Below, one piece after another: positions 6,514-33,561 of a DNA stretch of 52,550 nt (within the stretch, counting starts at the first letter, position 1; the number at the start of each line of letters is the position of its first letter). Source of the stretch: Planctomycetaceae bacterium. Its GTDB lineage: Bacteria; Planctomycetota; Planctomycetia; Pirellulales; UBA1268. The notes below the pieces were generated by a model. It worked only from the letters and a program-made list of their open reading frames with translations, searched no databases and was not told the origin of the DNA. The DNA lies in contig CANFQO010000016.1 of assembly GCA_947449135.1 (NCBI GenBank), forward strand, positions 1 to 52,550. The letters run 5' to 3'. The position numbers and the translations under genes were made by a program.

Positions 6514-6553
6514 GAGACTGTTGTTTTCCGGTGACGTGGCAGGCGAGGCGACC

Positions 6554-8231: not shown

Positions 8232-8233
8232 GG

Positions 8234-8314: not shown

Positions 8315-9193
<879 letters not shown>

Positions 9194-9198
9194 GGGAG

Positions 9199-9210
9199 GC
9201 TTTCGAAAGC
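9199..9210. promoter_or_regulatory. 12-bp palindrome before sucD
   Basis: GCTTTCGAAAGC is a perfect palindrome six bases upstream of the sucD ATG, in the sucC-sucD spacer, where a ribosome-binding site would be expected and no good one is seen. It could be a protein site or could affect translation. Confidence 0.25.
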
Positions 9211-9324
9211 GGAGAGTGGAAGGTTCGTTGAGTGTAAGGGCAGGAGGCCCGCTTGAGCAGCAGCGACCTGCGGTCGCCAAGCCGGGGCGGACAAGATGTC
9301 CGAGCCCGGCGTGAACACGGTATG

Positions 9325-11537: not shown

Positions 11538-11613
11538 CCTTCTGGGCTGGCCAACGGCTGTGGCCATCGGAAAGAATAGGGATTCCCCGCTGATCCAGAG
11601 GTCGAGACGGTTT

Positions 11614-12726: not shown

Positions 12727-12856
12727 CGCGGGAAACTGCCGTATCGTCGCCGGGATACGACTGCTAGTTTCTCCCCCCTCTTAGGAATGGAGCGGCAGGT
12801 TCGGTCACCACGCAGGTGTGGACTCTGCCGTGCAAGACAGCCCCACCATAATGTAA

Positions 12857-13900
<1,044 letters not shown>

Positions 13901-14618: not shown

Positions 14619-14763
14619 AACAGTCTCGTCAGGCGTGGGGTTCGACGTATTCGTAAGAAATTGTGAGGAGAGAATACCACCGTCCATTCACCAGCGCACA
14701 GTCCGCGGCGAGCAGTGGTGGTCAATTCCGGAGTTCAGCGACGAGAATCGCTGGTGCTTCGCA

Positions 14764-15618: not shown

Positions 15619-15642
15619 CTCTCCGCCTCACGGTAAAGTTTT

Positions 15643-16446
15643 CTAAGCCGCCGCTCGTCCGTGGGACGACGCCTTGGAGAGCGTCACGAAGAACTCACAG
15701 CCGCGGGTCGGGTGGTAGTGCTGCTCCTGGAAGCCGATGAGCCTCAGTTCGTGCAGATCGCGGATGATCTGGCGAAATGAATCGGGCGTGAACACCCAGG
15801 CGTGCAGATCGAAATAATGCCCCTCCCGGACCTTTGCCATCGCGTGGAGGGCGTCCTGCAGGCCATGCACCGGCTCCAGCTGTCCCTGATGCCGCTCGTC
15901 CCAGGCGATCTGGCCGCCCTTACGCCGCACCTTCAGAAAATACTCGGCCGCAGTGCCCGGAGAATGATTGGTCGATTGTGCATGGGCCACGTCGATGACA
16001 CGGCCCAGTGAACTGTTCTCACGTTCACAGTCGAAGCAGTAGCGCTTGTCGGGCACGGCCAGCGAGAGCACTCCGCCCGGAGCGAGTATTCGCTCACACG
16101 CGTTGAGAAATCCCACCAGATCGGGAACGTGCTCAATGACGTGGCTGGCTATGATCCAGGCGAAACGCTCGCCAGCGACCAGTTCGTCGAGCGGCTGACC
16201 GGTCCAGACATAGTCGACCTCTTCGATGGCATCAGTATCAACGCCGTGCGTCGCATATTTCTCACGGAGGGAGGCTGCATCAAGGTGGTCGAGAATACGG
16301 ACGTTGAAACCGTCGCGCTTCGCCGCGATGGGCCGATGACTGGGGCCGATCTCGAGTCCTGGAGTTGCCTTGTCGACCCCGCGGAGGATGATTTGTTCGC
16401 GGGGTTCCGGTCCCTTCGTGACGATGATCTTACGGAACAGGCTCAT
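15643..16446 (-). CDS. Methyltransferase domain protein
   Basis: A 267-residue protein. The ATG at 16446 overlaps the stop of the upstream glycosyltransferase by four bases and has GGAGGG before it, so the two are translationally coupled. The N-terminal region contains GLEIGPSHRPIAAKRDGFNV, a motif I variant common in glycan-cluster methyltransferases. IIASHVIEHVPDLVGFLNAC and ERILAPGGVLSLAVPDKRY give motifs IV-VI. A C-terminal segment with DLHAWVFTPDSFRQII is also typical of this group. It probably modifies sugars added by the adjacent transferases. It ends GRAAA. Confidence 0.8.
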   Translation of the reverse strand: MSLFRKIIVTKGPEPREQIILRGVDKATPGLEIGPSHRPIAAKRDGFNVRILDHLDAASLREKYATHGVDTDAIEEVDYVWTGQPLDELVAGERFAWIIASHVIEHVPDLVGFLNACERILAPGGVLSLAVPDKRYCFDCERENSSLGRVIDVAHAQSTNHSPGTAAEYFLKVRRKGGQIAWDERHQGQLEPVHGLQDALHAMAKVREGHYFDLHAWVFTPDSFRQIIRDLHELRLIGFQEQHYHPTRGCEFFVTLSKASSHGRAAA

Positions 16447-18293: not shown

Positions 18294-18627
18294 CCAGGTG
18301 GGTTCCTCATCGACGGCGGGTCGGCCAGCTTTCGCGCAAAGCAATGACGCAACCTGCCAGCCCGCGTTGGGGTTCCTGCTGATTGGCGTTCACGGGTCCA
18401 ACGTCTCTGTTCGGAGACATTAGGTGACCTGGGCTGGGCCGCACCAGATCAATTCGCCACTCCAACCTGGAAGGCTAGGCAGGCCTGGCTGGCTGCGAAA
18501 GAAGCTGTCAATGGCAAGCCGCAGGAAAAAGACGATGGAAACGCCCTTCGATTTCTCCCAGCGACGAGCGTCGCCTCGACTGATGCGCGAGTGAATTCAT
18601 CGAACCGAGGGCACGGGTGTGCGCATG
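18294..18627. other. 334-base spacer without a gene
   Basis: No convincing frame is present. It holds a short palindrome GCGACG-AG-CGTCGC (18561-18574) and presumably the promoter of the tandem GT2 gene, but no clear -35/-10 pair is recognised. It separates the FkbM gene from the GT2 gene on the minus strand. Confidence 0.4.
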
Positions 18628-19578
18628 TTAGAAACGAAATGCTCCCACATTGAAGTCAGCCCGGCCGCGGTAACAGGGAGTATCCAACGATGTAGGAAAC
18701 ACCTCTTCGGACTTGATCAGCCTTGTGTCCTGTGTCCGCACCAGGGTGATCTCAAGTACCGAGGGAATAGGAATGCCGCCGACGATTGAGTACGGGCGGT
18801 GATTGTTGGCGTGCACATGGATCACACGGTGGTCGGCCGTCAGCACGCCGATCGCTCGCTCCACCTGGGTCAGAAACTCGGGGTCAACCAGTCGCTCGAG
18901 GTAATGAATTTCGAGCACGATTTGCTTGAAGTGCCGCAGACAATCCTGCGGCAGATGAGCAAGTACCTCCCATTCGCAGCCTTCAATATCGCACTTGAGG
19001 AGCATGTCTTGGCGGCCGAGATGGCCATTCACTTCGAGAAGTCTCGGCAATGTCTCCAACTCTGCAGTCGCGAATGGCCCGAGACCTTTTTTCGACCAAT
19101 GAAAGCGGTCGTTCTGGAGTGGCAGCGCGTCGATCGTGTGGTCGTATTGGAAAACCTCGATGCCTCTTTCGGCCATGCTCAGATCCCACGACACCTCGTC
19201 ACAGATTCCGATGGAATAGGCTGCGGTGATGCCTTTGAAATCATCCAGCATGACATACCCACCGTCGCATTCCTTGCCGATGCGAATCTTCGCGTAATCA
19301 ACCGCTTGCATTGGCTCCATGTGCCTCAAAATGGCGAGTACCTTTCGTTGCACACCCTCGGAATCGTCGTAGACAAAGCCCTCCGACGCCGAGGCTCTCC
19401 GTGTCGCGAATTCAGGGGTGGCGACGAGTTTTTCGACCAGGTCGCGAAAGTCGGCGCAGGCTTCGAGAAATACGCTGGCCTCGGCAGCGGAGCGGGGATG
19501 TCTCCCAAGAATGTGCGCGAATGCCCAGACAACGTCGTCTTGGGTGAGCATTTTTTTTCGTCGTGCGAAACCAAGCAT
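18628..19578 (-). CDS. FkbM-type methyltransferase with N-terminal helical domain
   Basis: A 316-residue protein. A TTG at 19599 or the ATG at 19578 could start it; I use the ATG, nine bases after AAGGTG. Residues about 10-60 (TQDDVVWAFAHILGRHPRS, then LVATPEF) match a short helical module seen fused to glycan methyltransferases and glycosyltransferases. The rest has IGKECDGGYVMLDDF, AYSIGICDEVSWDL, MLLKCDIEGCEWEVL and FKQIVLEIHYLE, the hallmarks of FkbM/Methyltransf_24 O-methyltransferases. It follows the GT4-GT2 gene closely. The C-terminus VGAFRF lacks Ala-Ala. Confidence 0.8.
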   Translation of the reverse strand: MLGFARRKKMLTQDDVVWAFAHILGRHPRSAAEASVFLEACADFRDLVEKLVATPEFATRRASASEGFVYDDSEGVQRKVLAILRHMEPMQAVDYAKIRIGKECDGGYVMLDDFKGITAAYSIGICDEVSWDLSMAERGIEVFQYDHTIDALPLQNDRFHWSKKGLGPFATAELETLPRLLEVNGHLGRQDMLLKCDIEGCEWEVLAHLPQDCLRHFKQIVLEIHYLERLVDPEFLTQVERAIGVLTADHRVIHVHANNHRPYSIVGGIPIPSVLEITLVRTQDTRLIKSEEVFPTSLDTPCYRGRADFNVGAFRF

Positions 19579-19599
19579 CGTGGACACCTTGCTTTCCAA

Positions 19600-22050
19600 T
19601 CATGCCGCCCGTGAACGATGGCGACGGCGGTGCTGTTTGAACTCCCGTAGCCACGTGCGAATCGATCCAGAAAATCGATTGTGCTGCAGGAAATGAGGTA
19701 AAAAGTTGCGAATGGTCCGCGTCGGCGTCGCCCGTTGGCTCGCTGCCGTGCCGTGTGTCGCGGTATTACGTTGTGCGATCCGCAGCAGCGTGACCCATGC
19801 GGCAGACCATTCCTGATCGGACGAATCGTTGGACCACTCTTCGGCCTGGCCAATTTGCGTAAAGGTCTCACAGATGTCGTCGAAGAGAGTGCGGCGGAGC
19901 GACTCGAGTCTGTGTTCGGAATCACGCACCCGGCCAGCGGCGATTCGCGGCAGCGATTCATCTGATGTAGCCCGTTCATCGAGGGCTTCGAAAGCCAGCA
20001 ATTGGGGCTCAAGGATGCTTCTCCAGGAAGCATTGCTGATGTGCGTGTGGTGCTCAGCCCGACGACGCCTTTCAACCTCGAGTTCCTGATAAAACAAGAG
20101 TCCATCGCTGCCTACGACGCGAGGATGCATGGCCGAGAGCACGGTCCGCATATTGCCGACGCGACGCATTCGTTCCCAAAACGACCTCGGCGTCATCGGA
20201 TGAAGATGATGGCCTAAAGCGTGCTCGAGATACCGCAGTGTCAGGCCTCGCTTCGATAGACGATACCCAAGTTCGACATCTTCAAACGCCGCGTGACGGA
20301 ATGCCTCACTGAAAATCTGCTCGAGGTCTGCAGTCAGCGCACGCTTCCACGAAACGTTCGAGGTATAAAATCGGTCGAACGGCACTTGCTGCTCATCGCT
20401 CAGCGCGCGGTAATCGAACTGTTGAGCGCCATCTCCGACGATGTGGCGCGTAAACCAGTCGAGATTCATGTCGGGATGCCAATCCACCTGTCCCACGAAG
20501 GCATCTTCTGCTGCTGGGTAACGCCGGTGGGCATCCAGATGGCGAGCGATCAGGTCCGGTGCAGGGATGATGTCGTCGCCCGTAATGAGAAAGATCTCCC
20601 CGTCTGCTGCTTCGAGTCCCAGATTCCTCGCGGCACCCGGTCCGGGAAGGCCATCGTTATCGATGACGCGAGTGCGAAGTTTTCCGCCAATCGAGTCAAC
20701 GATGTGACGAACCGCATCGCCATCACCATGATCGTTGACGATGAGGATCTCAAAGGGTTGCGAATCCTGTCCAGCGTACCCCTGAAGTGTTTTCACAAGT
20801 TCAGCCGGACGGTCCTTGGTAGGCATGATGACCGACAACGGCATCGTCGCGGGGCGCATTCGACGAGAGGTCCTGGTTTCCTTCTCTGCGTGCCACTGTT
20901 GCAGTGCGTTCACGAGCGACTGTGCGGCACTCGTCCAGGTGTATCGGCCAAATATGTGGGCCCTTGCAACGCTTGCTGCGTCTTCAGCTGGTGACGGGTT
21001 TGTCAGATAAGCCCGGAGAGAATCGACGAGGGCTTCCTCGCGAACTTGGCACCAATACGCCCCGGGGCCCACGAGATAGTGCTCGGTGTCATAACACTGC
21101 CCGACAGGAACTTCGTCGAATGCCAGTGGCAGAAAGCCGTTTGGGATGGCGTATTCCATGGGTCCGCCAAAAGCAGGCATCATCACCGGCAGCCCCACGG
21201 CCATCGCGTCGATAATCTTCATGGCATATCCCTCGCCACGAAAAGGAGACACCATCAGGTCCATTTCGCCGTAGAGTCGGATAAGATTTTCTTTGCTCAG
21301 AAACGACTCGTGCCAGACCACCTTGGGAAACGATGGGTGGGACGCAACCAAGTCGCGGAGTGTTCGCGAGCCTGATGAGGAGCCATAGTCTTTGATGTGG
21401 ATCTCAACCGGGTCGTGAGGTGAATAAGCCTTCGCGAGCGCGGGTATGAGAATGTCAGTTCCGTAGCGGTTGAGATCATGGGAGTTCGTCACAATCAGGA
21501 TTTTGCGTACTCCTGAGTTGCTGCGACCCTTGCCTGTGGGAAAGAGTGAGTCGATCTCAGGGGAGTAGCCCGGCGCTACGACCGCACATTGGTTCGCCGA
21601 AACGCCGAGGTCAGCCAGGCTGGCTCCGCAAAACGAACTCATGGGGAGTTTGCGGACGCCGTTTGTGACGAGGTTTCGACTCCACATGTCGAGAGGACGA
21701 ATCTCACCCCGAAACCGATAGTTCGTGACGAACAGTTCCGCGTTGACCTCGCCCGAGACCTCCTGCATCAAGAACTGCGGCCAGTAGTGGTTCAGCTTGA
21801 TGTGATACGTTCTGCATGGGTGGTCGGTCATCAGCGATAAGAGACGCGGTCGGAGTCGCGACTCGAGCGTCTCAGAGAGTGCACGAGTGCGCGGAATACT
21901 CACGCGCTGTCCGATGTCCGAGAGTGCTACGGCTAATTCACCGACCACCCAACTGAGGGCACTCCCCTGCGAGAGATCGACAGCAAGATGAATGCCCTCA
22001 TCGCCGTGAGGTTTCCGCATGACCGCAGTGGTAGCTTGCGTCTTGGACAA
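19600..22050 (-). CDS. Bifunctional glycosyltransferase: GT4-like plus GT2 domain
   Basis: An 816-residue fusion. Residues about 20-400 form a GT-B domain of GT4 type (KILIVTNSHDLNRYGTDIL, then MVSPFRGEGYAMKIIDAMAV near 265 with the E-x7-D/E position). Residues about 410-650 form a GT-A GT2 domain (LSVIMPTKDRPAELVKTL, ILIVNDHGDG, TGDDI as metal motif, YTSNVSWKR). A basic C-terminal region ends RRHRSRAA. I take the TTG at 22050 as start because GGGAG lies nine bases before it; the ATG at 22020 has no such signal. It could add two sugars in succession. Confidence 0.82.
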   Translation of the reverse strand: MSKTQATTAVMRKPHGDEGIHLAVDLSQGSALSWVVGELAVALSDIGQRVSIPRTRALSETLESRLRPRLLSLMTDHPCRTYHIKLNHYWPQFLMQEVSGEVNAELFVTNYRFRGEIRPLDMWSRNLVTNGVRKLPMSSFCGASLADLGVSANQCAVVAPGYSPEIDSLFPTGKGRSNSGVRKILIVTNSHDLNRYGTDILIPALAKAYSPHDPVEIHIKDYGSSSGSRTLRDLVASHPSFPKVVWHESFLSKENLIRLYGEMDLMVSPFRGEGYAMKIIDAMAVGLPVMMPAFGGPMEYAIPNGFLPLAFDEVPVGQCYDTEHYLVGPGAYWCQVREEALVDSLRAYLTNPSPAEDAASVARAHIFGRYTWTSAAQSLVNALQQWHAEKETRTSRRMRPATMPLSVIMPTKDRPAELVKTLQGYAGQDSQPFEILIVNDHGDGDAVRHIVDSIGGKLRTRVIDNDGLPGPGAARNLGLEAADGEIFLITGDDIIPAPDLIARHLDAHRRYPAAEDAFVGQVDWHPDMNLDWFTRHIVGDGAQQFDYRALSDEQQVPFDRFYTSNVSWKRALTADLEQIFSEAFRHAAFEDVELGYRLSKRGLTLRYLEHALGHHLHPMTPRSFWERMRRVGNMRTVLSAMHPRVVGSDGLLFYQELEVERRRRAEHHTHISNASWRSILEPQLLAFEALDERATSDESLPRIAAGRVRDSEHRLESLRRTLFDDICETFTQIGQAEEWSNDSSDQEWSAAWVTLLRIAQRNTATHGTAASQRATPTRTIRNFLPHFLQHNRFSGSIRTWLREFKQHRRRHRSRAA

Positions 22051-22085: not shown

Positions 22086-23153
22086 TCAGGACGATCGCTC
22101 CGAGAGCCCGAGTCGGCTACGGCGATAGCCGCCGCTCGTGATGTTGGCCACCCAGGCCGGGTTCTCGAGATACCAGGCAACCGTGCGAGTGATCGCCTCG
22201 TCGAACGACAGGCTGGGTCGCCAGCCGAGTTCTCCCTCGATCTTGCTGAAGTCGATGGCGTAGCGGCGGTCGTGGCCTGGTCGGTCCTTCACGTAGCTGA
22301 TCAGCGACGTGCAGGGAGCATGGGGTAATCCCGGCCGCAGCGTGTCGACGGCCTTACAGATGGCCTGCACCACCTCCAGATTCCGTTTTTCGCTGTCGCC
22401 GCCGATGTTGTAGACCTCGCCAAGTCGACCACGAGCAAGCACCGCCCGGATCGCACGGCAGTGATCGCCGACATAGAGCCAGTCGCGGACCTGCGCACCA
22501 TCGCCATAGACGGGCAAGGGCTTGCCCTCCAGACAGTTGAGGATCATCACCGGGATGAGCTTCTCGGGAAACTGGTAGGGACCGTAGTTGTTGGAGCAGT
22601 TGGTTGTGAGGGTGGGCAGACCGTAGGTGTGATGGTAGGCACGGACGAAATGGTCGCTCGAGGCCTTCGAGGCCGAGTATGGCGAGTTGGGGGCATACGG
22701 AGTGGTCTCGGTGAACTTGCCGGTGCTGCCGAGCGAGCCGTAGACCTCGTCCGTGGAAACGTGCAGAAAACGGAACTCTTTCTGCTCTGGCTCCGGGAGG
22801 TTCTTCCAGTGCCTTCGAGCTTCCTCAAGCAGGCGGAAGGTTCCCACCACATTGGTTTCGACGAATGCGGCCGGACCGTCGATCGACCGGTCGACATGGC
22901 TTTCTGCGGCAAAGTTGACGATCGCCCGTGGTCGATGGCTCGCCAAGAGCCGCGCCACGAGTTCGCTGTCGCCAATGTCGCCCTGCACGAAAATGTGCCG
23001 CGGGTTTACCGCCACGTCGCGAAGCGATTCGAGATTGCCCGCGTAGGTGAGTGCGTCGAGGTTGACGACGGCCGAGTGCTCCTCGTCGATCCATTGCCGA
23101 ACGAACTCGCCGCCGATGAATCCGGCTCCGCCGGTAACCAAGATGGGTTGCAT
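22086..23153 (-). CDS. rfbB: dTDP-glucose 4,6-dehydratase
   Basis: A 355-residue enzyme making dTDP-4-dehydro-6-deoxyglucose, the precursor of dTDP-rhamnose and other deoxyhexoses. [13 protein letters not shown] (NAD binding) lies at the N-terminus, with [35 protein letters not shown] and [20 protein letters not shown] (Tyr-x3-Lys). [12 protein letters not shown] and the C-terminal [15 protein letters not shown] are canonical. The ATG at 23153 gives family length. rfbA is 2.3 kb away on the other strand; rfbC and rfbD are not in the window. It ends SERSS, not Ala-Ala. Confidence 0.95.
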
Positions 23154-23347
23154 GCCGCCCTTTCGCACAAGAATCCCGAAGGAAAAACGCGGGTTTCGAC
23201 CGGGGTAATACGTTTTTCGTGTGCTGGTCGCCAGCCCGAAAAATGGCCGTGACATTGAGGCCGATGGGGAACCGGTTTGATCTGGCGATGCTTACCGGGA
23301 TGCCGTATCACCCCCATCCACTCGTACGAATCCGGAAACCAAGGCCG

Positions 23348-25234
23348 ATGGCAGCGCGGAAAAAAACCACGGCATTACTCGCTCTTGGCAAGCACTTGGA
23401 ACGTGGCTTGCGTCACTTGAGGCATGGCATCAGGGATGCGCGAGGTGCGGTTACGATTCTCCGGGCCGCTCGCCGTGCTGGACCTGACACCCTTGCCCGT
23501 CTCGCCGCCGGCCTCAGCCCGCCCGACGTGATTATTTGCGGCGGTTCTGACGCGGCAGTGGCTTCCGAGGAGTGCATCAGCTGCCTTGACAGACTCGCCC
23601 GTGGTCCGCTGCTCCCGCGGCAGGTGTGGATCGTCGCACCAGCGGACACCCTGGCGGCATTGCGTCGCTCCTCGGCAACGGGTGTCCGCCCGGTGGTGCA
23701 ACGGCAGGGCACGGATGTCATTTTCGTCGAAGCTGCGTCACATTCCGGGCAGACATCCCTGGTGAGCTTGCGCACCGCTGTAGCCTCCGCCGCGTCCGGC
23801 CATGTGGTTCTCTGCGATGCCCGGGCGACCGTCTGCGAAGATGCCCTCCTGTGGGTTGCGGCGGTTCTCGAACGGAACGGCGGCCAGAATGCAGCCCGTG
23901 AGATCATGGCGGTCTACGGCGATGACGCAGTGAGCGATCCTTCGGACGGCGTGTGGGCCGCTCCGACGCTTCATCACAAGCCCGACTTTTCCTGGACATC
24001 ACTGCTCGCGGGCAGCTATCTGGGCCCGATCGTGGCCTTCGATCGGTCACTGGCAACCGCAGCACTTGGGCGGCTGGTTGCCCGTGGCGTGACGACCGTA
24101 TCCGCAAGCGAAACCCTCTATGCACTCGCCCTGGAGACACTCCGGGGCTACTCACACGAAGACGTGGCGCATATCCGGCACCCACTCGGGATTCTGCCGC
24201 GTGGCCACGGCACTGCCGCAGGCGATGACACGGCTGGCATCGCCTCCGAGGCGCTCGAAGCCATCGGCGTCTCGGCCTCCGTGACGGTGCATCCCCAAGA
24301 GGCATCGATCCACCAGTTTGAACTGCAGCCGCGACAATCGGCACACGTCTCGATCGTGATCCCGACAAAGAACGCCGGGGCTCTCGTGAAGTCGTGCGTG
24401 CATGATCTCCGGGAACGAGCCGGCTATGACAACTATGACATCACCGTGATCGATCACGAATCAGACGAGCCGGAACTGCTCGGCTTTCTCGCCCACGAGT
24501 CGGCTGCGGACCGGCTGCGGGTGTTTCCCTACAGCGGTCCCTTCAATTTCGCGGCCATGAACAATGCCGCCGTGCGGTCCACCTGCGGTTCCCTGCTGCT
24601 CTTTCTCAACAACGACGTCGACAGCTTCTCGTCACGATGGCTGGAACAGATGACGGCGACCTTCGAACTCGACGATCGCATTGGGGCTGTCGGTGCGCTG
24701 CTCCACTATCCGGAAGGCGATATCCAGCATGCCGGTGTCGTGCTGAGCGCGAAACGGCTGTGCCAGCACGCCCATTACAACTGGCCAGCGGACTCGCTCG
24801 GGTATCAAGGCCGCATCCGCCGGTTGCAGGAATTCTCGGCTGTGACGGCTGCGTGCATGCTCGTCCGCAGGGATGCCTTCGAGGCAGTGGGCGGCTTCGA
24901 CGAGCAATTCCCGGACGACTACAACGACATCGATCTCTGCCTCCGGCTTCGCAGAGCGGGGTTTGCGATCGTCTACCAGCCGCACGTTCAGGCCACGCAC
25001 TGGGAGGGACGCACCCGCACGGCCAAGGAAACGGCCAAGGACGTGTTCGTCGCGCGTTGGCAGCATGCTTTTCCCTGTGATCCGTTCTACCATCCGCACC
25101 TTGCCGCAACCGACTTCCGCCCCGACGGCCTGGGGCGATTCTGGCGGCAGCGGAAGACCGTGGCACTGGCCGAGCTGCTGGCAGGCCGTGAGCAGGCGCT
25201 GCCGCCGCTGACACGCCGTGGCAAGGCGGCGTAA
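23348..25234 (+). CDS. Family 2 glycosyltransferase with degenerate N-terminal domain
   Basis: About 628 residues from ATG 23348; the frame is open to a GTG at 23219 and the true start is uncertain. The C-terminal half is a clear GT2 domain: [41 protein letters not shown] as the metal region, [20 protein letters not shown] and [15 protein letters not shown]. The N-terminal half looks like a decayed or divergent GT-A domain (VWIVAPADT and [20 protein letters not shown]), so tandem architecture like that of 16443-18293 is likely with one inactive copy. It is divergent from rfbB. It ends RRGKAA. Confidence 0.82.
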
Positions 25235-25442
25235 GCACGGCTGGGCGACGATCGGATCTCCCCCGCATTGCCAAACCGCGAGTTCTTTGCGGACCCGCCG
25301 CCCCGGCCGAGTCGACCCCGCGGTATGTGCTCTGGCGTTACTCCCCCGCGCGCTGTTATCCCCCCGCAACCGGCGGGCCTCCCCGGCCCGATCGCAAAAA
25401 ACCCCACAACAACCCACAAATCCCTCGCTGGCTGATCACGCT

Positions 25443-26372
25443 ATGGACGCACGCAAAAACGACACCACACCGCTCAAGGGCATCGTGTTGGCAGGCGGAT
25501 CTGGAACGCGTCTGCATCCGATGACGCTGGCAATCTCCAAGCAACTGCTGCCGGTCTACGACAAGCCGATGGTCTACTACCCGCTGTCGGCGCTGATGCT
25601 CGCCGGCATCCGCGACATTCTCTTGATCTCCACGCCCCACGATCTGCCGCATTTTCAGCGGCTGCTCGGCGACGGATCGCAGTTTGGTGTGGCGCTCTCC
25701 TACGCGGAGCAGCCGAAGCCCGATGGGCTGGCACAGGCATTCGTCATCGGCCGAGATTTCCTCGGTGGTGATCGGGCAGCACTCGTGCTCGGCGACAACA
25801 TCTTCCATGGTCACGGCTTCCAAGCGGTGCTTCACGCCGCCGCGGCACGGCAGCGTGGGGCCACGATTTTCGCCTATCCCGTGCGCGATCCTGAGCGGTT
25901 CGGCGTCGTGGAGTTTGATGCAGGTGGTAAGGCCCTCTCGCTCGAGGAGAAGCCACGGCAGCCGAAATCTCATTTTGCTGTGCCGGGTCTTTACTTCTAC
26001 GACGCTGACGTGACGGATATCGCCCGCAGCCTGAAGCCGAGCAGTCGGGGGGAATTGGAGATCACTGACCTAAACAGGGTGTATCTCGAGCGTGGCGACC
26101 TCCAGGTGGAGAAGCTCGGCCGCGGCTTTGCCTGGCTCGACACCGGCACGCCCGACTCGCTCCTGCAGGCGACTTCGTTTGTGCAGACGATCCAGGAGCG
26201 ACAGGGGCTGAAGATCGCTTGTCTCGAAGAAATCGGTATGCACCTGGGATATCTGTCGCCGGCGGAGGTGGTCGAGCGAGCCCTCCGGATGAAGAGCGAC
26301 TACGGCCGGTATCTCGCGGACATCGCAGCAGAATCGCTGGCCGAGCCGCAACCGCGAGCGGTGGCCGCGTAA
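25443..26372 (+). CDS. rfbA: Glucose-1-phosphate thymidylyltransferase
   Basis: A 309-residue nucleotidyltransferase joining dTTP and glucose-1-phosphate into dTDP-glucose, the substrate of Rfb[17 protein letters not shown] is the nucleotide-binding signature at about 13-28. [41 protein letters not shown] and [16 protein letters not shown] are all canonical RmlA motifs. ATG 25443 gives the family length. The frame is open upstream to 25218 but that part overlaps the previous gene and is not conserved. It ends RAVAA after a Pro/Arg tail that extends past usual RmlA homology. Confidence 0.95.
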
Positions 26373-26402: not shown

Positions 26403-27266
26403 ATGGACCGCACACCGCGATGCTCCCGCGCGTTGGTATACGCCCACTGGGATCGCGATGGCATCGTGGATCCGTACGTCATCCACGCCCTGCGGCAATA
26501 CCGCGCCGTGGTCGACCGCATCGTGTTCGTCTCTACGCACTGCACGAACGTGTGCGCCGCGCTCACGTCGCTGGCGGACGAGATCATCGTACGCGACAAC
26601 GAGGGCTTCGATTTCGCAAGCTGGCGCGAGGGTCTTTTGCGGCTCAACATCCCGGCCTACGACGAGATTCTCTTCACGAACAGCAGCGTCTACGGCCCGC
26701 TCTGGCCGATTGAGGGCTGCCTAGCGGCCGCGGCTGCTAGGCAGAGCGATCTCTGGGGCATGACGGTGTCACTGGAGCCCGAGGTACATCTGCAGTCATA
26801 TTTCATGGGCATGTCCCGCCGGCTGTTGGCCTCAGACTTTGGCAAGCGGCTCTGGGAGCACGTACGGCTTGTGCCCACCAAACGGGATGCGATCAATGCC
26901 TACGAGCTGCGCTGGATGCCGGACTGCGTCGCGAATGGCTTTGCCGTCCACTCGCTGTTCGACGGCCGGAATCATCCGCGGGTGCCTGTAGGAGAGCAGC
27001 TGTCGAACATGGCCTGCTGGCCACCCTGGCAAAAGCGTGTACGGCGGTATCGGCGCAGCATCCGCCGCCCGACCTACAACCCCACGCATCTGCAGTGGAG
27101 GCAGGTGCTGGAAGCCGGCGTGCCGATGCTAAAAGTGGATCTGCTCCGGGACAACCCTGTCGGCATTGACGCCCGTCGCATTTATGACTGGCTTACGAGC
27201 CACACCGCGTACCCAGTGGACATCATCCGCGACCATCTCGATCGGATGATCCGCGCTGCCGCCTGA
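26403..27266 (+). CDS. RgpF-like rhamnan synthesis family protein
   Basis: A 287-residue protein resembling the rhamnan synthesis protein F family (RgpF), which includes rhamnosyltransferases of polysaccharide clusters. Typical are YAHWDRDGIVDPYVIHAL near the N-terminus, DEIIVRDNEGFDFASWREG near 62-80, EILFTNSSVYGPLWP, and LQSYFMGMSRRLLAS. It begins 30 bases after rfbA, suggesting one transcript and a dTDP-rhamnose link, though the later rhamnose genes are not in the window. It ends MIRAAA. Confidence 0.8.
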   Translation: MDRTPRCSRALVYAHWDRDGIVDPYVIHALRQYRAVVDRIVFVSTHCTNVCAALTSLADEIIVRDNEGFDFASWREGLLRLNIPAYDEILFTNSSVYGPLWPIEGCLAAAAARQSDLWGMTVSLEPEVHLQSYFMGMSRRLLASDFGKRLWEHVRLVPTKRDAINAYELRWMPDCVANGFAVHSLFDGRNHPRVPVGEQLSNMACWPPWQKRVRRYRRSIRRPTYNPTHLQWRQVLEAGVPMLKVDLLRDNPVGIDARRIYDWLTSHTAYPVDIIRDHLDRMIRAAA

Positions 27267-27335
27267 CACGTTTTCGGTTGGGGGGTTGGGAAGACTGGCA
27301 AGGCCTGCGAAGGCCGCGGCGCGGTAGGGGCTGAC

Positions 27336-27357
27336 TAATCGGCACAAAGTCTCACGG
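27336..27357 (+). repeat. Conserved intergenic block, copy 1 (before sulfotransferase gene 1)
   Basis: The core ATCGGCACAAAGTCTCACG recurs as ATCGGCACAACGTCTCACG at 29947-29967, with one difference. Both copies lie about 95-130 bases upstream of a sulfotransferase start codon. It may be a shared regulatory element or a scar of duplication. Confidence 0.5.
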
Positions 27358-27464
27358 CAAAACAGAGACCTTCCGATATCCACAGGAAGAGGGGTGCGCG
27401 TTTCACAACGGAGGTTCGCTCCAAGCGGGTGCCTTGTTCAGTCATTTATTGCAGGTCCCTGCTT

Positions 27465-28562
27465 ATGAGCCGGCTCTCGACAGTCATCCGAACGCTGGCC
27501 AGGCGTGCCCCACACTGGCCGATTCCACCAGTATCCGCCCACAAGCCTCCGCTCTTGCTTCACATCGGCCCGCACAAGACCGGAACAACCGCGATCCAAC
27601 TGTTCTGTGAACGAAACCGTAACGAGTTGGCCAAGGCGGGGTTCTGGTATCCGAAAGCGGGCCTCGCAAGCGGGCAGCACATGGTGTTGCCGGGGTGCTA
27701 CATCAGCCATCATCCGCACATTCCCGAATCCTTGCTCGGGGGCTCTCCGGAAAAAATTGTCGCCGACATCGCGGCCGAGGTGCCGCGTGGTCTGACGCCC
27801 GTGATGAGCAGCGAGGTGTATTGGGAACTGTTATGCAACCAACCAGACGCGTTCGAATCCGTTTTGGAGGTGCTCCGTAGGCGATATGACGTGCACATCG
27901 TCATGGTCGAAAGGCCGGTCGTTGAGCGGGTCTGGAGTGCCATTAAATTCAAATCACGACTGGGTTTTGCGTTTGACCCCATTGCGGAGTTTGGAGTGTT
28001 ACAGGGCGTCGCCTACCATGCCCTGGAACGGCTCAAGAAAATAGATTGCTCTGTGATCCGCGTTCCATACGATGACTCTGACTGCATTTCGCCGTTTCTG
28101 AGATCTGTTTCGTCGCATCTCGCACAGCGGCAGCCTGCTCAACCACGCATCCTCGGCGCACTGATTGAAAAGTGCCGCGCGGTTTCTTCAAAGCTACGAG
28201 AAAACGTCTCGCCTTCAGAGCCTTGGTTCGTTGCCGTCACGTTGGAGTTTTCGCGTCGGCTCATGGCGGCGAAAGAAAGCACCGGAAAATATCACAGCCG
28301 TATCGCGGCATTTTTGCGAGACGTGATGGCAATCGGCAACAGGCTCGAGTCAATCCGTTTGTTGCCAGATGAAGACGTTGTCTTTTACCGCGTCGTCGAA
28401 GCAAGCAACACTGGTGCCGGCCTCCTGTCTCCAGTGGAGGTTCGGGTGTGGGAAGCGATCTGCGGTCACCCTACTATCCAAAAAATAGCGATTCGATCGG
28501 GCTGTGCTGGCGAATTGATGGCTGTTTGTCAGCCCATGGTCCGTTCAAGAGATGCTGCCTGA
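27465..28562 (+). CDS. Sulfotransferase-like protein 1
   Basis: A 365-residue protein; ATG 27465 is used, nine bases after an AGGT ribosome-binding site. LLHIGPHKTGTTAIQLFCER near the N-terminus is the 5'-phosphosulfate-binding loop of PAPS-dependent sulfotransferases, and VMVERPVVERVWSAIKFKS matches the 3'-phosphate-binding region. An acceptor sugar is likely given the surrounding glycan genes. It is not closely similar to the two sulfotransferase-like genes that follow. A/T-ending codons are more common here than in the flanking core genes. It ends RSRDAA. Confidence 0.75.
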   Translation: MSRLSTVIRTLARRAPHWPIPPVSAHKPPLLLHIGPHKTGTTAIQLFCERNRNELAKAGFWYPKAGLASGQHMVLPGCYISHHPHIPESLLGGSPEKIVADIAAEVPRGLTPVMSSEVYWELLCNQPDAFESVLEVLRRRYDVHIVMVERPVVERVWSAIKFKSRLGFAFDPIAEFGVLQGVAYHALERLKKIDCSVIRVPYDDSDCISPFLRSVSSHLAQRQPAQPRILGALIEKCRAVSSKLRENVSPSEPWFVAVTLEFSRRLMAAKESTGKYHSRIAAFLRDVMAIGNRLESIRLLPDEDVVFYRVVEASNTGAGLLSPVEVRVWEAICGHPTIQKIAIRSGCAGELMAVCQPMVRSRDAA

Positions 28563-28860
28563 GGTCGCTGGGTACGGCGGTCTGCGGCATGGATCGCGGC
28601 GGGGAGCGGTGGGCCGCCGTATCCGGCGGTGCTTACCGCCACGCTCGCTGGCCGCAGCGTTGATGGCGGCACGGCTTTCGCTGAGGAAATGGGGCGACTA
28701 GGCAATTTCTGCGAACGCCACGCCGCCATAAAGTCTGCCCAATCGGCAATATCCTCATTTAGGGTGGGCTGATACGTCGATACCCTCTCCAGTGAGAGGG
28801 AGCAGGCGGCGAGTCAACTGCCTGTTGTGACTCATCCAACATTCGATAGTAGGTACTGCC
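28563..28860. other. 298-base spacer with two short hairpins
   Basis: No gene is seen. GGCGGT-GCTT-ACCGCC (28625-28640) and CCCTCTC-CAGT-GAGAGGG (28783-28800) are perfect stem-loops. The second lies 60 bases before the next start codon. Neither has a T-tract, so leader structures or protein sites are more likely than terminators. Confidence 0.4.
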
Positions 28861-29772
28861 GTGAGCCGCCTTACCCGATTTCTTCGCTCTGTCTGCTCGC
28901 AGCGAGTGGATGGTCGCCTCCTCCCACTGCAGCAACCGGGGTTTCCCGTTGCCGTCTGCTGGTCGGCAAAGAGCGGATGTACGACGGTCCTGAAATGGTT
29001 CCTTGCACAGACCGGCCTGCTGGACGAGGCACTCGCCTACAACGACTGGATTCACGCCTATCGGCAGGACAAGTTGTTCGCCACGAAAGGCTACGCAGTT
29101 CAGTGCGACAGGCTCTTCAAGAGCAGCCAACGCAACACTGTCATCATCAGATTGATCCGTGATCCCGCCTCCCGGGCAGTTAGTAGCTTCCTGCATTTTC
29201 TGCGCAATGAGCACGATCTTGAGCATTGGCCGGACGCCGTTGAACTGACCCGATGGAAGGCAGCCGTCGGACTTGCTGGACAGCAGGGGCTCAGCTTCCA
29301 GCAGTTTCTTATGTACGTGGCTGCGCAGCAGGTGAGCCGCCGACTGGTCGATCCTCATTTCAGACCGCAGTACGATGAGCAGCAGGATTCGCGGGTCGAC
29401 ACCTATGTCCGTCTGGAAGATCTGTCGGCTGGTTTGAGAGCTGTCGAGGAACGTTGCGGATTGCCTCATGTCGATGTGGGAAGTCTTAGTATTTCTCCCC
29501 ACCATAATCCCGCGACCGCGAACCACGGCTGGCCGACACGCGCCGCGGAGTTTCCCGCCGATGTCAACATCCTCCACGAACTCGGGACGCCTCCAGTTCA
29601 GGCTTTTCTTGACCCTGAAACAAGGTTGTTGATTCGTACCGCCTACTGGACTGACTACGAGGCATACGGACACCACTACGACGTAGCCCCGACCACGACG
29701 CTGCGAATGCCGTCTTCGGACCGGTCAAAAACAGGTGGAGATAGTGCAGGTCAATTGCGACGGGCGGCCTGA
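28861..29772 (+). CDS. Sulfotransferase-like protein 2
   Basis: A 303-residue protein starting at GTG 28861 with an AGGT ribosome-binding site. AVCWSAKSGCTTVLKWFL (about 30-47) fits the 5'-phosphosulfate loop, and RLIRDPASRAVSSFLHFLR (about 97-115) the 3'-phosphate loop with its Arg and Ser. It also has PHFRPQYDEQQD and YVRLEDLSAGLRAVEE. It is a close paralogue of the gene at 30060: both share AYNDWIHAYRQDKLFA and YWTDYEAYGHHYD. Expected role: PAPS-dependent sulfation of the glycan. It ends QLRRAA. Confidence 0.78.
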   Translation: MSRLTRFLRSVCSQRVDGRLLPLQQPGFPVAVCWSAKSGCTTVLKWFLAQTGLLDEALAYNDWIHAYRQDKLFATKGYAVQCDRLFKSSQRNTVIIRLIRDPASRAVSSFLHFLRNEHDLEHWPDAVELTRWKAAVGLAGQQGLSFQQFLMYVAAQQVSRRLVDPHFRPQYDEQQDSRVDTYVRLEDLSAGLRAVEERCGLPHVDVGSLSISPHHNPATANHGWPTRAAEFPADVNILHELGTPPVQAFLDPETRLLIRTAYWTDYEAYGHHYDVAPTTTLRMPSSDRSKTGGDSAGQLRRAA

Positions 29773-29946
29773 AGACTGCGTTACGCGCTGAGTCAGCAGA
29801 TAGCGGCGCCCGTGATCAAGTTCCCAACGATCGTGCCACCCTCGGCAGCACGATTTCGCTGCCCGTCGCCGTATGGCACGGCACTCGCTTCGGATATGCG
29901 AGAACTGACGTATCCTTCGGAATCGCGTTGGGAAGCAGAGTCTATC

Positions 29947-29967
29947 TGATCGGCACAACGTCTCACG
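29947..29967 (+). repeat. Conserved intergenic block, copy 2 (before sulfotransferase gene 3)
   Basis: ATCGGCACAACGTCTCACG, matching the block at 27336-27357 with one change in the core. It lies 93 bases before ATG 30060. Confidence 0.5.
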
Positions 29968-30059
29968 ATGGAACGGACGACGTGCCGATATTTGCACGTG
30001 TCGTAGCGGAACATCCATGTACGCCTTCCGATTTCTGAGCCGCCCATAGAGTGCGTTCA

Positions 30060-31010
30060 ATGAGTCGCCTTACTCGCTTTCTACGGTCAGTCTGCATGCC
30101 CCGCGTGCAGGCGTTGCGTGGTGATCTGCCGCCGATCGATCCCACATGGACGAGGGAGGAGTTGAAGCCGCCCCACGTGCTGCCGTTGCATGGTTACCTC
30201 CCGCCGCTCCAGCAACCAGGGTTTCCTGTTGCAGTCTGTTGGTCGGCGAAGAGCGGGTGCACGACGGTTTTGAAGTGGTTCCTCACCCAGAATGGCCTGC
30301 TTGACGAGGCACTCGCATATAACGACTGGATTCACGCCTATCGACAGGACAAATTGTTCGCAGCGAGCGACTACCTACGGGACTGCAATGCACTCTTCAA
30401 AAATAGCGACAGAAACACTGCCGTCATCAAGGTGATTCGCGATCCTACTACTCGAGCTGTTAGCAGCTTCCTGCACTTCCTGCGTTATGGTCATGACATC
30501 AAGCGTTGGTTCAATGGGGCGTCTCTGACGGACTGGAAGTCAGTTGTCGGAATCGAACATCAGGAAGGCCTGAGCTTTCGGCAATTTCTCGCGTATGTGA
30601 TAGCGCAGCAGCACAAAGGCTTACCACTCGACCCCCACTTTCATCCACAGTACGACTCACAACAGGATCCAATGGTCGACACCTATATTAGGCTGGAAGA
30701 CCTTTCGTGTGGACTAAGGGCGGTCGAGGCTCGCTACGGATTGCCCCATGTCGATGTGGAAAACCTAAGTGTTTCCGACCATCACAATCCGGCAAAAAAA
30801 GATCACGCCTGGCCCGTGAATGCCGCAACTGTGCCTGCCGATCAAAGCACCCTCGTTGAACTTGGAACGCCTCCGGCCAACGTTTTCTTCGATCCTGAAA
30901 CGCTGTCACTCATTCGGGCGGCCTATTGGACTGACTACGAGGCTTACGGACACCACTACGATACGGAGTCGGCAATGGATCTCCATGTCGGAGCGCGGCA
31001 AGCCGCCTGA
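30060..31010 (+). CDS. Sulfotransferase-like protein 3
   Basis: A 316-residue paralogue of the preceding gene. It has the same MSRLTRFLRSVC start, the same AVCWSAKSGCTTVLKWFL loop and RDPTTRAVSSFLHFLRYGHD. The main difference is an insert of about 20 residues after the N-terminus (around PPIDPTWTREELKPPH). ATG 30060 follows directly on the alignment of the two starts. The pair arose by tandem duplication followed by divergence, probably giving different acceptor sites. It ends GARQAA. Confidence 0.78.
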   Translation: MSRLTRFLRSVCMPRVQALRGDLPPIDPTWTREELKPPHVLPLHGYLPPLQQPGFPVAVCWSAKSGCTTVLKWFLTQNGLLDEALAYNDWIHAYRQDKLFAASDYLRDCNALFKNSDRNTAVIKVIRDPTTRAVSSFLHFLRYGHDIKRWFNGASLTDWKSVVGIEHQEGLSFRQFLAYVIAQQHKGLPLDPHFHPQYDSQQDPMVDTYIRLEDLSCGLRAVEARYGLPHVDVENLSVSDHHNPAKKDHAWPVNAATVPADQSTLVELGTPPANVFFDPETLSLIRAAYWTDYEAYGHHYDTESAMDLHVGARQAA

Positions 31011-31298
31011 ATCACGTTGTTTTAATCGAGACACACGATCGCGTTGCTGTGATTAGGCAGCCGTCTATCGGGCGGAGCGGATGGTCACAGTCTCGCTGCA
31101 TGCCTTGGTGCCGGCAGCGATAGCTCAGTCCCCATCCTACTGGCCAGCCTGTGCAGCCTGCCTGTTTTTACGACACGGAGCGACTCTGACGTTTGCGTTC
31201 AGTTTGCGGGCGCCGGATGCCGATAACAGCACAGGTCGTTGGTGTGTGGGCTGGCTGGTTTCAATAGGCCCCCACCATGGTCTTGGGGTCCACTATCC
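31011..31298. other. 288-base spacer, no gene recognised
   Basis: It separates the third sulfotransferase gene from the second GT4 gene. A weak AATCAC/GTGATT inverted pair follows the stop codon. I see no clear terminator or promoter. Confidence 0.3.
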
Positions 31299-32477
31299 AT
31301 GTTCGCCAACCGGCTTTGCTCGCAGCGGATTACCCAGCAGGCTCGGGCCGAACGGCCCCGCGTCGTGCTCGACCTCGAAAAACTGCGGCATGCCAACTGC
31401 GGGCTTGGCCGGTTCTGCCGGCACCTGGCCGAGGGCATCCTGGCGCTCGGCGAGAGGTCTTTCGATCCCGTGTTTTTCCTGCCGCAGACAATCCCGCAGG
31501 AGACTGTCCGGCACTTCCGAGCTGAGGGCGTCGAGCAGATCGAGGTGAGCCCCTGGCGGAAGGAGACATTCGCCAGCTTTTATCGGCCGTTCCTCGCGCC
31601 CTTCCAGCGGCGGCATCGCTATGACCTCTGGCACGTCACGAACCAGACAAGTAAATATCTGCCGCTCGATCCAACCGTGCCTGTCGTGCTCACGATCCAC
31701 GACCTGAACTTTCTCCACGACGCTCGGCACCAGGACCGGCCCGGGGCTGTGGCCCGCAAACTGGCCGACGTGCAGCGGAAGGTCGATAGGGCAACGGCGA
31801 TCGTCACCGACTCACGCTACGTGGCCGATGATGTCGCCGCCCACCTGCGGCTCGGCGGAAAACCGGTGCATGTCGTGTCGCCGGGCCTGCCCACTCCGCC
31901 CGTCGCTTCCGCCGTCGCTCCAGTGTGGGCACCTTCCGGCCGCTTTCTGCTCTCGATCGGCAACTGCCTGCCCCACAAGAATTTTCATGCGCTTTTCGAC
32001 CTCATTGAGCAGCTACCCGAGTTCGCGCTCGTGATCGCCGGCAAACGGGAGACTCCCTACGGGGAGCAGCTGGTCCGTGAAGTCGCCGCCAGGAATCTCG
32101 GGAGCCGGGTGACGCTCACCGGGCAGGTCTCCGACGGCGACCGACAGTGGCTCTACGAGCACTGCGACGCGTTTGCATTCCCGTCGCTCACCGAAGGCTT
32201 TGGGTTTCCGGTGCTCGAGGCGATGCAGTGCGGCAAGCCGGTGTTCATGTCCCGCCGCACGAGCCTGCCGGAACTGGGCGGGTCGCTCGGCTTCTACTGG
32301 GATTCCTTCGGGGCCGAGCACATGGCCGCCGTCTTCCATGCAGGCATGGCGGCCGTGTCGGCCATGCCGACCTTTGCGGCCGCGGCCCGGGCCCGGGCCG
32401 CCGAATTTTCCTGGGAGAACGCCGCCCGCGGCTACCTGCGGGTCTACCGCTCCATCCTCGACCCGGCGGCTGCCTGA
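31299..32477 (+). CDS. Glycosyltransferase family 4 protein (paralogue of 11614-12726)
   Basis: A 392-residue GT-B enzyme. It shares long blocks with the GT4 at 11614: VVLDLEKLRHANCGLGR, VPVVLTIHDLNFLH, LLSIGNCLPHKNFHALF, VSDGDRQWLYEHC and LTEGFGFPVLEAMQCGKPVF with the E-x7-E pair. Similarity extends to DNA level around 31955-31990, so the duplication is fairly recent or under strong constraint. As with its paralogue, a gmd-family gene follows. ATG 31299 is used. Unlike the first copy it ends with Ala residues (DPAAA). Confidence 0.85.
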   Translation: MFANRLCSQRITQQARAERPRVVLDLEKLRHANCGLGRFCRHLAEGILALGERSFDPVFFLPQTIPQETVRHFRAEGVEQIEVSPWRKETFASFYRPFLAPFQRRHRYDLWHVTNQTSKYLPLDPTVPVVLTIHDLNFLHDARHQDRPGAVARKLADVQRKVDRATAIVTDSRYVADDVAAHLRLGGKPVHVVSPGLPTPPVASAVAPVWAPSGRFLLSIGNCLPHKNFHALFDLIEQLPEFALVIAGKRETPYGEQLVREVAARNLGSRVTLTGQVSDGDRQWLYEHCDAFAFPSLTEGFGFPVLEAMQCGKPVFMSRRTSLPELGGSLGFYWDSFGAEHMAAVFHAGMAAVSAMPTFAAAARARAAEFSWENAARGYLRVYRSILDPAAA

Positions 32478-32529
32478 ACGGCCCCTCCGTCGGCCAAGCT
32501 ACCCTTTCGATCACCTGCGGGGACTTGCT

Positions 32530-33561
32530 ATGACCCCCTGTTCCATGACCCCTGCAACCCGCCTCCAGCCATCGCTCGCACGAACAGCCCTCATCTGCGG
32601 GATGGGTGGGCAGGATGGCAGCTACCTCGCAGCGCATCTGCTCGACCTCGGCTATACGGTCGTCGGCACCAGCCGCGATGCTCAGGCGAGCCGCTTTGAC
32701 GGGCTCACTCGGCTTGGCATCCGTGACCGCGTGTCAGTGGAGTCGATGTCGCTCGTCGACTTCCGCTCCACGATGCAGGTGCTCTCCCGCACACAGCCCG
32801 ACGAGGTCTACAACCTCGCCGGCCAGACCTCCGTGGGGCTCTCCTTCAACCAGCCCGTGGAGACCTTCGAGAGCATCGTCATCGGTACGGTGAATCTGCT
32901 CGAGGCGATCCGGATGCTCGGCCGACCGATCCGGCTCTACAACGCTGGGAGTTCCGAGATGTTTGGCAACACCGGCGACCAGCCGGCCGGCGAGACGACC
33001 GTGCTCAGGCCTTGCAGTCCCTACGGCATCGCCAAGGCCACGTCGTTCTGGCAGATCGCCCAGTATCGACAGTCCTACGCGATCGAAGCCTGCACCGGTA
33101 TTCTCTTTAACCACGAAAGCCCGCTGCGTCCGGAACGGTTCGTGACGCAGAAGATCGTGGCGGGCGCCTGCCGCGTGGCCGCAGGCGAACAGGATGTGCT
33201 GAGCCTGGGCGACCTCTCTGTCCGCCGCGACTGGGGCTGGGCGCCAGAGTATGTCGTCGCCATGCACCGCATGCTGCAGATGGAGACGCTCCAAGACTTC
33301 GTGATCGCCACCGGCCAGACGACGAGCCTCGAAGACTTTGTCCGTGAGGTATTCGCCAGCCTCGGCCTCGACTGGCGGAAGCATGTGGTCCGCGATCCGG
33401 CGCTCACCAGGCCTAGCGAGATCCTCTCAGGCCAGGCTGACACGTCCCACGCCACGGCACAGCTCGGCTGGACCGCGCGATCCCACATGAAGGATGTCGC
33501 GCGGATGATGGTGGAGGCGCGGCTTGCCTCACAGACCCCGGCGATCCGCCGCGCGGCCTAG
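32530..33561 (+). CDS. GDP-mannose 4,6-dehydratase family protein (second copy)
   Basis: A 343-residue relative of Gmd, with [19 protein letters not shown] as nucleotide-binding loop, YNLAGQTSVGLSFNQP, AGSSEMFG, SPYGIAKATSFW (Tyr-x3-Lys intact) and [19 protein letters not shown]. It is more diverged from gmd at 12866 than the two GT4 genes are from each other, so it may act on a different nucleotide sugar or be a GDP-4-dehydro-6-deoxymannose related enzyme. ATG 32530 was chosen because the upstream frame overlaps the GT4 gene. Its stop lies two bases from the convergent lnt stop. It ends AIRRAA. Confidence 0.85.
   Translation: MTPCSMTPATRLQPSLARTALICGMGGQDGSYLAAHLLDLGYTVVGTSRDAQASRFDGLTRLGIRDRVSVESMSLVDFRSTMQVLSRTQPDEVYNLAGQTSVGLSFNQPVETFESIVIGTVNLLEAIRMLGRPIRLYNAGSSEMFGNTGDQPAGETTVLRPCSPYGIAKATSFWQIAQYRQSYAIEACTGILFNHESPLRPERFVTQKIVAGACRVAAGEQDVLSLGDLSVRRDWGWAPEYVVAMHRMLQMETLQDFVIATGQTTSLEDFVREVFASLGLDWRKHVVRDPALTRPSEILSGQADTSHATAQLGWTARSHMKDVARMMVEARLASQTPAIRRAA

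Follow-up and report, generated by a model that had tools for sequence, protein, structure and literature searches.

Planctomycetes are known for sulfatases dismantling sulfated glycans, and gene clusters making such glycans have been described from other bacteria, among them Pontiella, a relative of the planctomycetes within the Planctomycetota–Verrucomicrobiota–Chlamydiota (PVC) group. The present analysis concerns three consecutive plus-strand open reading frames (ORFs)—designated ST1, ST2 and ST3—of a Planctomycetaceae bacterium, found in a 52,550-nt stretch of DNA (contig CANFQO010000016.1) that is referred to as the window and to which all positions belong. Among the described systems, the sulfated capsular polysaccharide cluster of Vibrio sp. 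KMM 8419 brings together the genes for dTDP-rhamnose, glycosyltransferases (GTs), an RgpF homologue and sulfotransferases, while a similar cluster in another strain has one region without a sulfotransferase gene; the presence inside the cluster of the genes for synthesis of 3′-phosphoadenosine 5′-phosphosulfate (PAPS) has been called a hallmark (PMC11641403). The sulfated capsular polysaccharide cluster of Cobetia marina KMM 1449 combines the dTDP-Rha and GDP-Man pathways with GTs and a sulfotransferase (PMC11766843), in the putative sulfated glycosaminoglycan cluster of Pontiella sulfatireligans F21 the sulfotransferase is accompanied by GT2/GT4, methyltransferase and gmd genes (PMC7356697), and synechan represents a cyanobacterial sulfated polysaccharide (PMC8205485).

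As in Vibrio and Cobetia, the sulfotransferase genes of the window are found among GT and sugar-nucleotide genes, and the likeness to Vibrio extends to RgpF, GT, dTDP-rhamnose-type and sulfotransferase genes in one locus (PMC11641403), the comparison being one of gene content. The Vibrio cluster, however, includes an ABC exporter as well as cysNDC, and the structure of its sulfated glycan has been solved by nuclear magnetic resonance (PMC11641403), and the Cobetia cluster likewise has an ABC exporter and the PAPS genes within it and a solved structure (PMC11766843), whereas the window locus is known from its genes alone, has no recognised exporter, and its PAPS synthesis genes lie outside the cluster, on another contig. 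The Pontiella cluster differs by its PF13469-type sulfotransferase and by a sulfated exopolymer that has been measured (PMC7356697). Sulfated-capsule-type loci are already known from Vibrio and Cobetia; unexpected here is an N-terminal peptide, and perhaps a leader, common to two kinds of sulfotransferase. The best reading of the sequence is sulfation of a rhamnose-type glycan, its surface location and its sulfate being predictions: ST2, ST3 and probably ST1 are likely to sulfate a methylated glycan containing rhamnose or another 6-deoxyhexose and built by the neighbouring GTs.

The three genes are ST1 (27465–28562; 365 residues; from the ATG at 27465, adopted instead of the GTG at 27429 given by the ORF tool), ST2 (28861–29772; 303 residues; GTG start) and ST3 (30060–31010; 316 residues; ATG start, with a further in-frame GTG upstream at 30051). 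The original prediction of three adjacent genes at 27465–31010 with recognisable loops was borne out, all three being present and consecutive on the plus strand, with GPHKTGTT in ST1 and WSAKSGCTT in both ST2 and ST3. The signature of PAPS-dependent sulfotransferases combines a 5′-phosphosulfate loop bearing K and S/T with an R-x7-S 3′-phosphate loop, the latter corresponding to R150–S158 in ST1, R100–S108 in ST2 and R127–S135 in ST3 (numbered from ATG 30060). Since the bare R-x7-S pattern is unspecific, with two further instances in ST1 and one in ST3, its weight rests on its conservation in the alignments described below.

ST2 and ST3 carry the complete signature and both pass the Pfam cut-off (22 bits) of PF03567 (Sulfotransfer_2), with 28.1 and 23.7 bits, respectively; none of the three proteins is named by the NCBIfam scan. 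In the alignment of 18 sequences of the ST2/ST3 family, 14 match PF03567 (best 1.7e-19) and none of the 18 matches NCBIfam. The positions W61, K64, G66, C67, T68, H92, R127, R132, S135, H193, Q197 and E213 are conserved, with K64, G66, C67, T68, R127 and S135 invariant in all 18 (numbering of ST3 from ATG 30060). The profile of this alignment, compared with the PDB, aligns the R-x7-S loop best with the Alicyclobacillus sulfotransferase 3rnl (E 0.0012), a bacterial enzyme of no stated substrate, and more weakly with 3-O-sulfotransferases; a profile of four members has heparan sulfate 3-O-sulfotransferases as the best PDB matches (E 0.0038). Concerning the fold, the evidence for the pair comes from the AlphaFold2 model of ST3 (predicted local distance difference test, pLDDT, 82.1; predicted template modelling score, pTM, 0.77). 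In Foldseek, heparan sulfate 3-O-sulfotransferase 3 is its best match (E 1.8e-3), and all but one (7p9v) of the 50 rows listed belong to sulfotransferases or their known relatives, some of which we take to be relatives by name alone; in VIA-align, all 50 rows listed are sulfotransferases (top Z 8.8 over 198 residues at 4.3 Å). The model thus assigns the pair the sulfotransferase fold, with moderate scores, and PAPS binding and sulfate transfer by ST2 and ST3 are predicted from sequence and model. Both proteins also match PHROG 21956, a phage family with no function given (1.3e-27 and 1.1e-30).

The tandem duplication proposed for ST2 and ST3 holds, the two sharing 67% amino-acid identity over 289 aligned codons, with a nonsynonymous rate (dN) of 0.25, a synonymous rate (dS) of 1.5 and dN/dS about 0.17. 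These values identify an old pair, both copies of which have been retained under purifying selection. The insert thought to separate them exists as well, in ST3 and directly before the PAPS loop, its length being 27 residues instead of about 20; the stretch forms a longer N-terminal linker, part of which falls below 50 in model confidence, and the planctomycete homologue at locus L022 likewise has a shorter linker.

The identity of ST1 is less firm. Searched against Pfam and NCBIfam, it has no sulfotransferase match at E ≤ 1, so that the profile search proposed earlier as a check succeeded for ST2 and ST3 and not for ST1. Its four matches to PDB sequences at E ≤ 1 (best 0.028) are all to unrelated proteins. 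The alignment of ST1 with eight relatives nevertheless conserves H33, G35, H37, K38, T39, G40, T42, Q45, S115, E117, R150 and S158 in all nine sequences, i.e. both the HKTG[TS] loop and the R-x7-S spacing. Of the members of this alignment, at E ≤ 0.01 in Pfam, one matches Sulfotransfer_4 (0.0043), one Sulfotransfer_1 (0.0056) and one the unrelated OmdA (0.0028). A tblastn search with ST1 against plasmids yielded 13 records covering 12–39% of the query, of which seven are annotated as sulfotransferase domain-containing protein (six of these from Cereibacter sphaeroides), three as hypothetical and one as glycosyltransferase, two being without a name. Common ancestry of ST1 with ST2/ST3 was tried by profile comparison, which gave no significant result: over 22 columns, the probability is 0.7 (of a possible 100) and E is 0.076. 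The HKTGTT motif and the invariant R-x7-S favour ST1 as a sulfotransferase, which it probably is; this identity is probable and not established, because its model is poor and its fold is tied between kinases and sulfotransferases. Of the three sulfotransferase-like genes originally proposed, ST2 and ST3 therefore stand on family and, through the ST3 model, on fold, ST1 being the probable one.

ST1 and the ST2/ST3 type share their N-termini, although the remainders of the proteins are not detectably related by sequence. The 14-residue peptide of ST1, MSRLSTVIRTLARR (27465–27506, plus strand), is close to MSRLTRFLRSVC of ST2/ST3 (28861–28902 and 30060–30101), to MSRLSSVLRSIV of the L022 homologue and to MSRLTLLLRDIA of a second planctomycete homologue, L023, with the consensus MSRL[ST]xx[LI]R. 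By the mean score over the four peptides, none of 3347 other candidate N-termini (from the window and nine stretches of the same genome) reaches the value of ST1, while against ST3 alone one of the 3347 scores as high. In a search of about 1.0 Mb, with overlapping loci included, the pattern picks out five of 18,420 candidate starts; these five proteins match by construction, because the pattern was derived from them post hoc, and the informative part is that there are no further matches. It is absent from the remaining eight members of the ST1 alignment.

The leaders of the genes point the same way, less firmly. The leader before ST1 (27267–27381, plus strand) resembles in its 5′ part the segment before ST2 (28670–28748, plus strand, modestly similar to 27267–27345) and in its 3′ part that before ST3 (29937–29991, plus strand, similar to 27326–27380). 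Aligned against 200 single-base shuffles, ST1–ST2 scores 27 (shuffle maximum 17) and ST1–ST3 scores 25 (maximum 14), whereas ST2–ST3 is not clear (15 vs 15); the E values obtained with nhmmer for 0.52 Mb are 0.0013 and 0.0059. By blastn, the ST1–ST2 match (E 0.014) equals two stray matches in another locus (L058, E 0.014), a stray match of the ST3 leader occurs in L062 (E 0.018), and when the 124-nt ST1 leader was searched against its own genome by BLAST, the matches listed were the leader and two others of 23 nt (E 0.74), the two copies not being among them. A 19-nt core stands at 27338–27356 and 29949–29967; with up to three mismatches this pattern, built from these two occurrences, has only two other forward sites in the genome, both with three mismatches, compared with one for a control pattern.

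Two readings of the peptide link may be offered: ST1 may have received its 5′ end as a copy from a gene of the ST2/ST3 type, or the common peptide may target or dock these enzymes. A further and rather speculative idea, which we consider doubtful, is that of a modular sulfation cassette, in which the leader and the 14-residue peptide would be re-used to place sulfotransferases of two sequence families, not detectably akin, under a common control and at the same glycan-assembly complex, swaps of the protein body re-coding the position of sulfation. Between 27200 and 31300, the promoter scan found no sigma-70-like site (shuffles 1.5) and three terminator-like sites (shuffles 3.3); no Rfam family reached its gathering score between 26000 and 32000. 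The stretch of the trio has a GC content of 57.3%, that of the window being 63.5%; a foreign origin by base composition was considered and rejected, since the locus is equally low elsewhere (1-kb windows at 14.5 kb and between 17 and 22 kb) and composition therefore fails to single out the trio. An antisense ORF over ST2 (28759–29676, minus strand) was judged spurious because ST2 has homologues.

ST2 and ST3 represent, by sequence, a divergent branch of PF03567 common to genes of Bacillaceae, Haliea and viral contigs. The kind is rare, occurring in two of 59 near relatives and two of 392 genomes of the phylum, the genome under study counted in both. As a single query, ST3 found no relatives among the 8 and 4 candidate stretches of the genome_contigs and viral_contigs collections, three Priestia plasmid records (31% identity) and one uncultured phage record (28%); the relatives in the two former collections were found with an alignment query. 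In genome_contigs, they amount to nine loci, from two planctomycetes (L022, 48%; L023, 49%), four Bacillaceae and three Haliea, two of the last coming from one metagenome-assembled genome (MAG). The L022 protein is the same as that of L006 in genome G029, a member of the window's family. L023 retains counterparts, 60–83% identical, of seven window genes (those at 14764, 15643, 16443, 18628, 19600, 22086 and 25218) in a different arrangement, its sulfotransferase lying beside a GT2 gene and not after RgpF. In six of the nine loci (L022–L026 and L029; planctomycetes and Bacillaceae), the sulfotransferase has GT or sugar-nucleotide genes around it; in L025 (Bacillus sp. J33) and L029 (Perspicuibacillus), its immediate neighbours are an epimerase gene on one side and a GT2 gene on the other.

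The viral_contigs collection contains 21 loci with ST2/ST3 relatives, of which three neighbourhoods were examined. One of these, a 63-kb IMG/VR contig (L050, 1649–10322), has a distant relative (23%) amid GMD, DegT aminotransferase and methyltransferase genes and is possibly a virus-borne glycan-sulfation set. Recurring relatives (28–42%) are found in the IMG/VR contigs L031–L049, which have no stated host and are presumably Bacillus-like. On a Priestia megaterium plasmid (L021), the first gene listed downstream of the relative encodes a peptidase_G2-domain protein, and one of the Haliea relatives (L028, 5989–7818) has as its neighbour a convergent Sulfotransfer_3 gene (63.3 bits).

Concerning the setting of the trio, the region from 11560 to 33561 contains five ORFs with GT domains, RmlA- and RmlB-like genes, RgpF, two GDP-mannose-dehydratase-like (GMD-like) genes and methyltransferases. 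Upstream of ST1 on the plus strand lie the RgpF-like gene (Rhamnan synthesis protein F; 26403–27266; PF05045, 102.7 bits), an RmlA-like nucleotidyltransferase (25218–26372; PF00483, 249.2 bits; its ORF probably extends too far in the 5′ direction) and a GT2-type glycosyltransferase assigned by Pfam (23219–25234). The minus strand carries an RmlB-like dTDP-glucose 4,6-dehydratase (22086–23255; best PDB match 9.9e-137), a two-domain GT4 and GT2 glycosyltransferase, also by Pfam (19600–22050), a possible FkbM-type methyltransferase (18628–19599; PF05050, 15.6 bits, below the cut-off of 22.7), a double GT2 glycosyltransferase (16443–18344), a homologue of which adjoins the sulfotransferase in L022 and L023, and three methyltransferase-like genes (13929–16458, namely 13929–14687, 14764–15618 and 15643–16458). 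A GT4 gene paired with a GMD-like gene stands at both ends of the locus on the plus strand (11560–13900, and 31239–33561 on the 3′ side of ST3); both GT4s match one GT4 of a related genome, G012 (58% and 53%), and both GMD-like genes match one gene there (85% and 43%).

Elsewhere in the genome, RmlC, RmlD, CysNC and CysD are encoded together on one 16-kb stretch of contig C54 (1579–12158 of locus L068), with two GT2-like genes and with cysNC about 3.6 kb from rmlD. There are seven PF13469 (Sulfotransfer_3) matches, six of them over the cut-off, five PF03567 matches, two of which are ST2 and ST3, and 26 sulfatase-family matches. A second RgpF-like match (C45:16965–17462) is separated by about 2.4 kb from a match to Sulfotransfer_3 (C45:19840–20433; 33.6 bits); in this region (L067, 4969–8494), the RgpF-like ORF adjoins the ORF with the Sulfotransfer_3 match.

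Among related genera, the content of the locus varies at one fixed chromosomal site, as is typical of O-antigen and capsule loci. In genome G015 (L058), the left-flank genes of the window (3556 to 10134) adjoin counterparts of GT2, RgpF, RmlA and RmlB, and in G012 (L060, truncated where the piece ends) the counterparts of the two genes at 8237–10134 adjoin those of GT4, GMD, RmlA, RmlB and RgpF; neither genome has a match to ST1 or ST2/ST3 at E 0.001. A different protein, with an HIMKTAGTS motif and weakly PF03567-like (15.6 bits, below the cut-off), stands beside RgpF in L058, while in the second RgpF locus of G015 (L057) no sulfotransferase was seen. In G029, RgpF directly follows a single 1199-residue ORF (L059, 4036–7632) in which GT2, Sulfotransfer_3 (86.5 bits) and methyltransferase domains are fused. 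Altogether, a Pfam-confirmed sulfotransferase was found within the retrieved piece in five of 36 RgpF loci (L059, L084, L105, L106 and L107), L058 adding the one below the cut-off. It should be noted that many of these loci are cut by contig ends and are not independent, that matches in G454 and G029:C242 were left out, and that one profile used in the search included the L058 protein; the occurrence of sulfotransferases near RgpF is thus suggestive only.

The original prediction of a little-described locus for a sulfated glycan in planctomycetes partly holds. Sulfotransferase genes are common in planctomycetes, as 79 of the 149 genomes sampled have PF13469 and 26 have PF03567, and sulfotransferase genes of some planctomycete MAGs are in print, most planctomycete orders being without them in that survey, which searched PF13469 (PMC9723792). 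A planctomycete sulfation locus is not named in the available parts of PMC4807772, PMC12555021 and PMC10483923, nor was a paper on one among the matches listed in a literature search that left most subscription journals outside.

Several results weigh against sulfation of the locus glycan by all three proteins. The Pfam scores of ST2 and ST3 exceed the cut-off by just 2–6 bits, no Foldseek match of ST3 falls below 1e-3 and the best has a TM-score of only 0.30–0.35, and a VIA-align Z of 8.8 is moderate. ST1 fails every curated sulfotransferase family and its model, built from six sequences, is poor (pLDDT 56). The Pfam scan of 40 window ORFs, many of them without a family, recognised no flippase, polymerase or exporter, and the APS (adenosine 5′-phosphosulfate) kinase matches lie on contigs C25 and C54 and not on that of the trio (C16). 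By eye, the ORFs around the three Haliea relatives out of the nine genome_contigs loci include no glycan genes, and two of the three viral-contig neighbourhoods examined (L031 and L034) show none that are visible. The last two observations would also suit PAPS sulfotransferases acting on a small metabolite, a protein or a lipid instead of the locus glycan, the more so as carbohydrate and small-molecule enzymes have the same sulfotransferase fold and SULT1/2 and heparan sulfate enzymes are mixed within 1 Z at the top of the VIA-align results. Such an acceptor is nevertheless unlikely in view of the glycan-locus position both here and in most of the genome_contigs relatives; the heparan sulfate enzymes preferred by the four-member profile point in the same direction, although the 18-member profile puts the enzyme without a stated substrate first.

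That ST1 is another P-loop transferase or a kinase, leaving sulfation to ST2 and ST3 alone, seems rather doubtful. It would explain the lack of a curated family, the non-significant profile comparison with ST2/ST3, the first Foldseek rows of ST1, which are mostly nucleotide kinases with some sulfotransferases, and the tie in VIA-align between adenylate kinase 5 (Z 10.8) and 3-O-sulfotransferase 5 (Z 10.4). GPHKTGTT, however, holds T at the position of the Walker A lysine of kinases, as sulfotransferases do, and the invariant R-x7-S spacing, the N-terminal peptide common with ST2/ST3 and the sulfotransferase annotation of seven of the 13 plasmid relatives (with their dominance by one species and low query coverage) also speak for a sulfotransferase. 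It is highly improbable that ST2 or ST3 is a decaying, functionless duplicate: the GTG start of ST2 and the 27 residues it lacks could be taken that way, but dN/dS is low over the 289 codons, every motif is intact in both proteins, and what ST2 lacks is in part linker modelled with low confidence, which is shorter in L022, too. Sulfation of the locus glycan by ST2, ST3 and probably ST1 therefore remains the preferred reading.

On this preferred reading, PAPS would be supplied by CysD and CysNC of the same genome and held by the K/T of the 5′ loop (HKTGTT or KSGCTT) together with the R-x7-S of the 3′ loop. All three proteins look cytosolic because they have no hydrophobic membrane segment (highest 19-residue mean 1.0–1.1), and there ST2, ST3 and probably ST1 would put sulfo groups on hydroxyls of the glycan, the product 3′-phosphoadenosine 5′-phosphate (PAP) leaving. 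The acceptor would be assembled by the neighbouring GTs and then exported to the surface, the acceptor sugar and this order of action being, like the export, conjectural. Of the sulfated surface glycan foreseen in the original prediction, the glycan-assembly setting, here and in related loci, and the PAPS synthesis genes of the genome are in place, surface location and sulfate being predictions.

The genome with its 26 sulfatase-family matches also holds the parts to make a sulfated glycan, and the locus names three candidate sulfotransferases for this task. Related genera with different sulfotransferase content at the same chromosomal site provide a natural comparison, and the N-terminal peptide, if functional, would be a simple handle directing sulfotransferases to the glycan-assembly complex.

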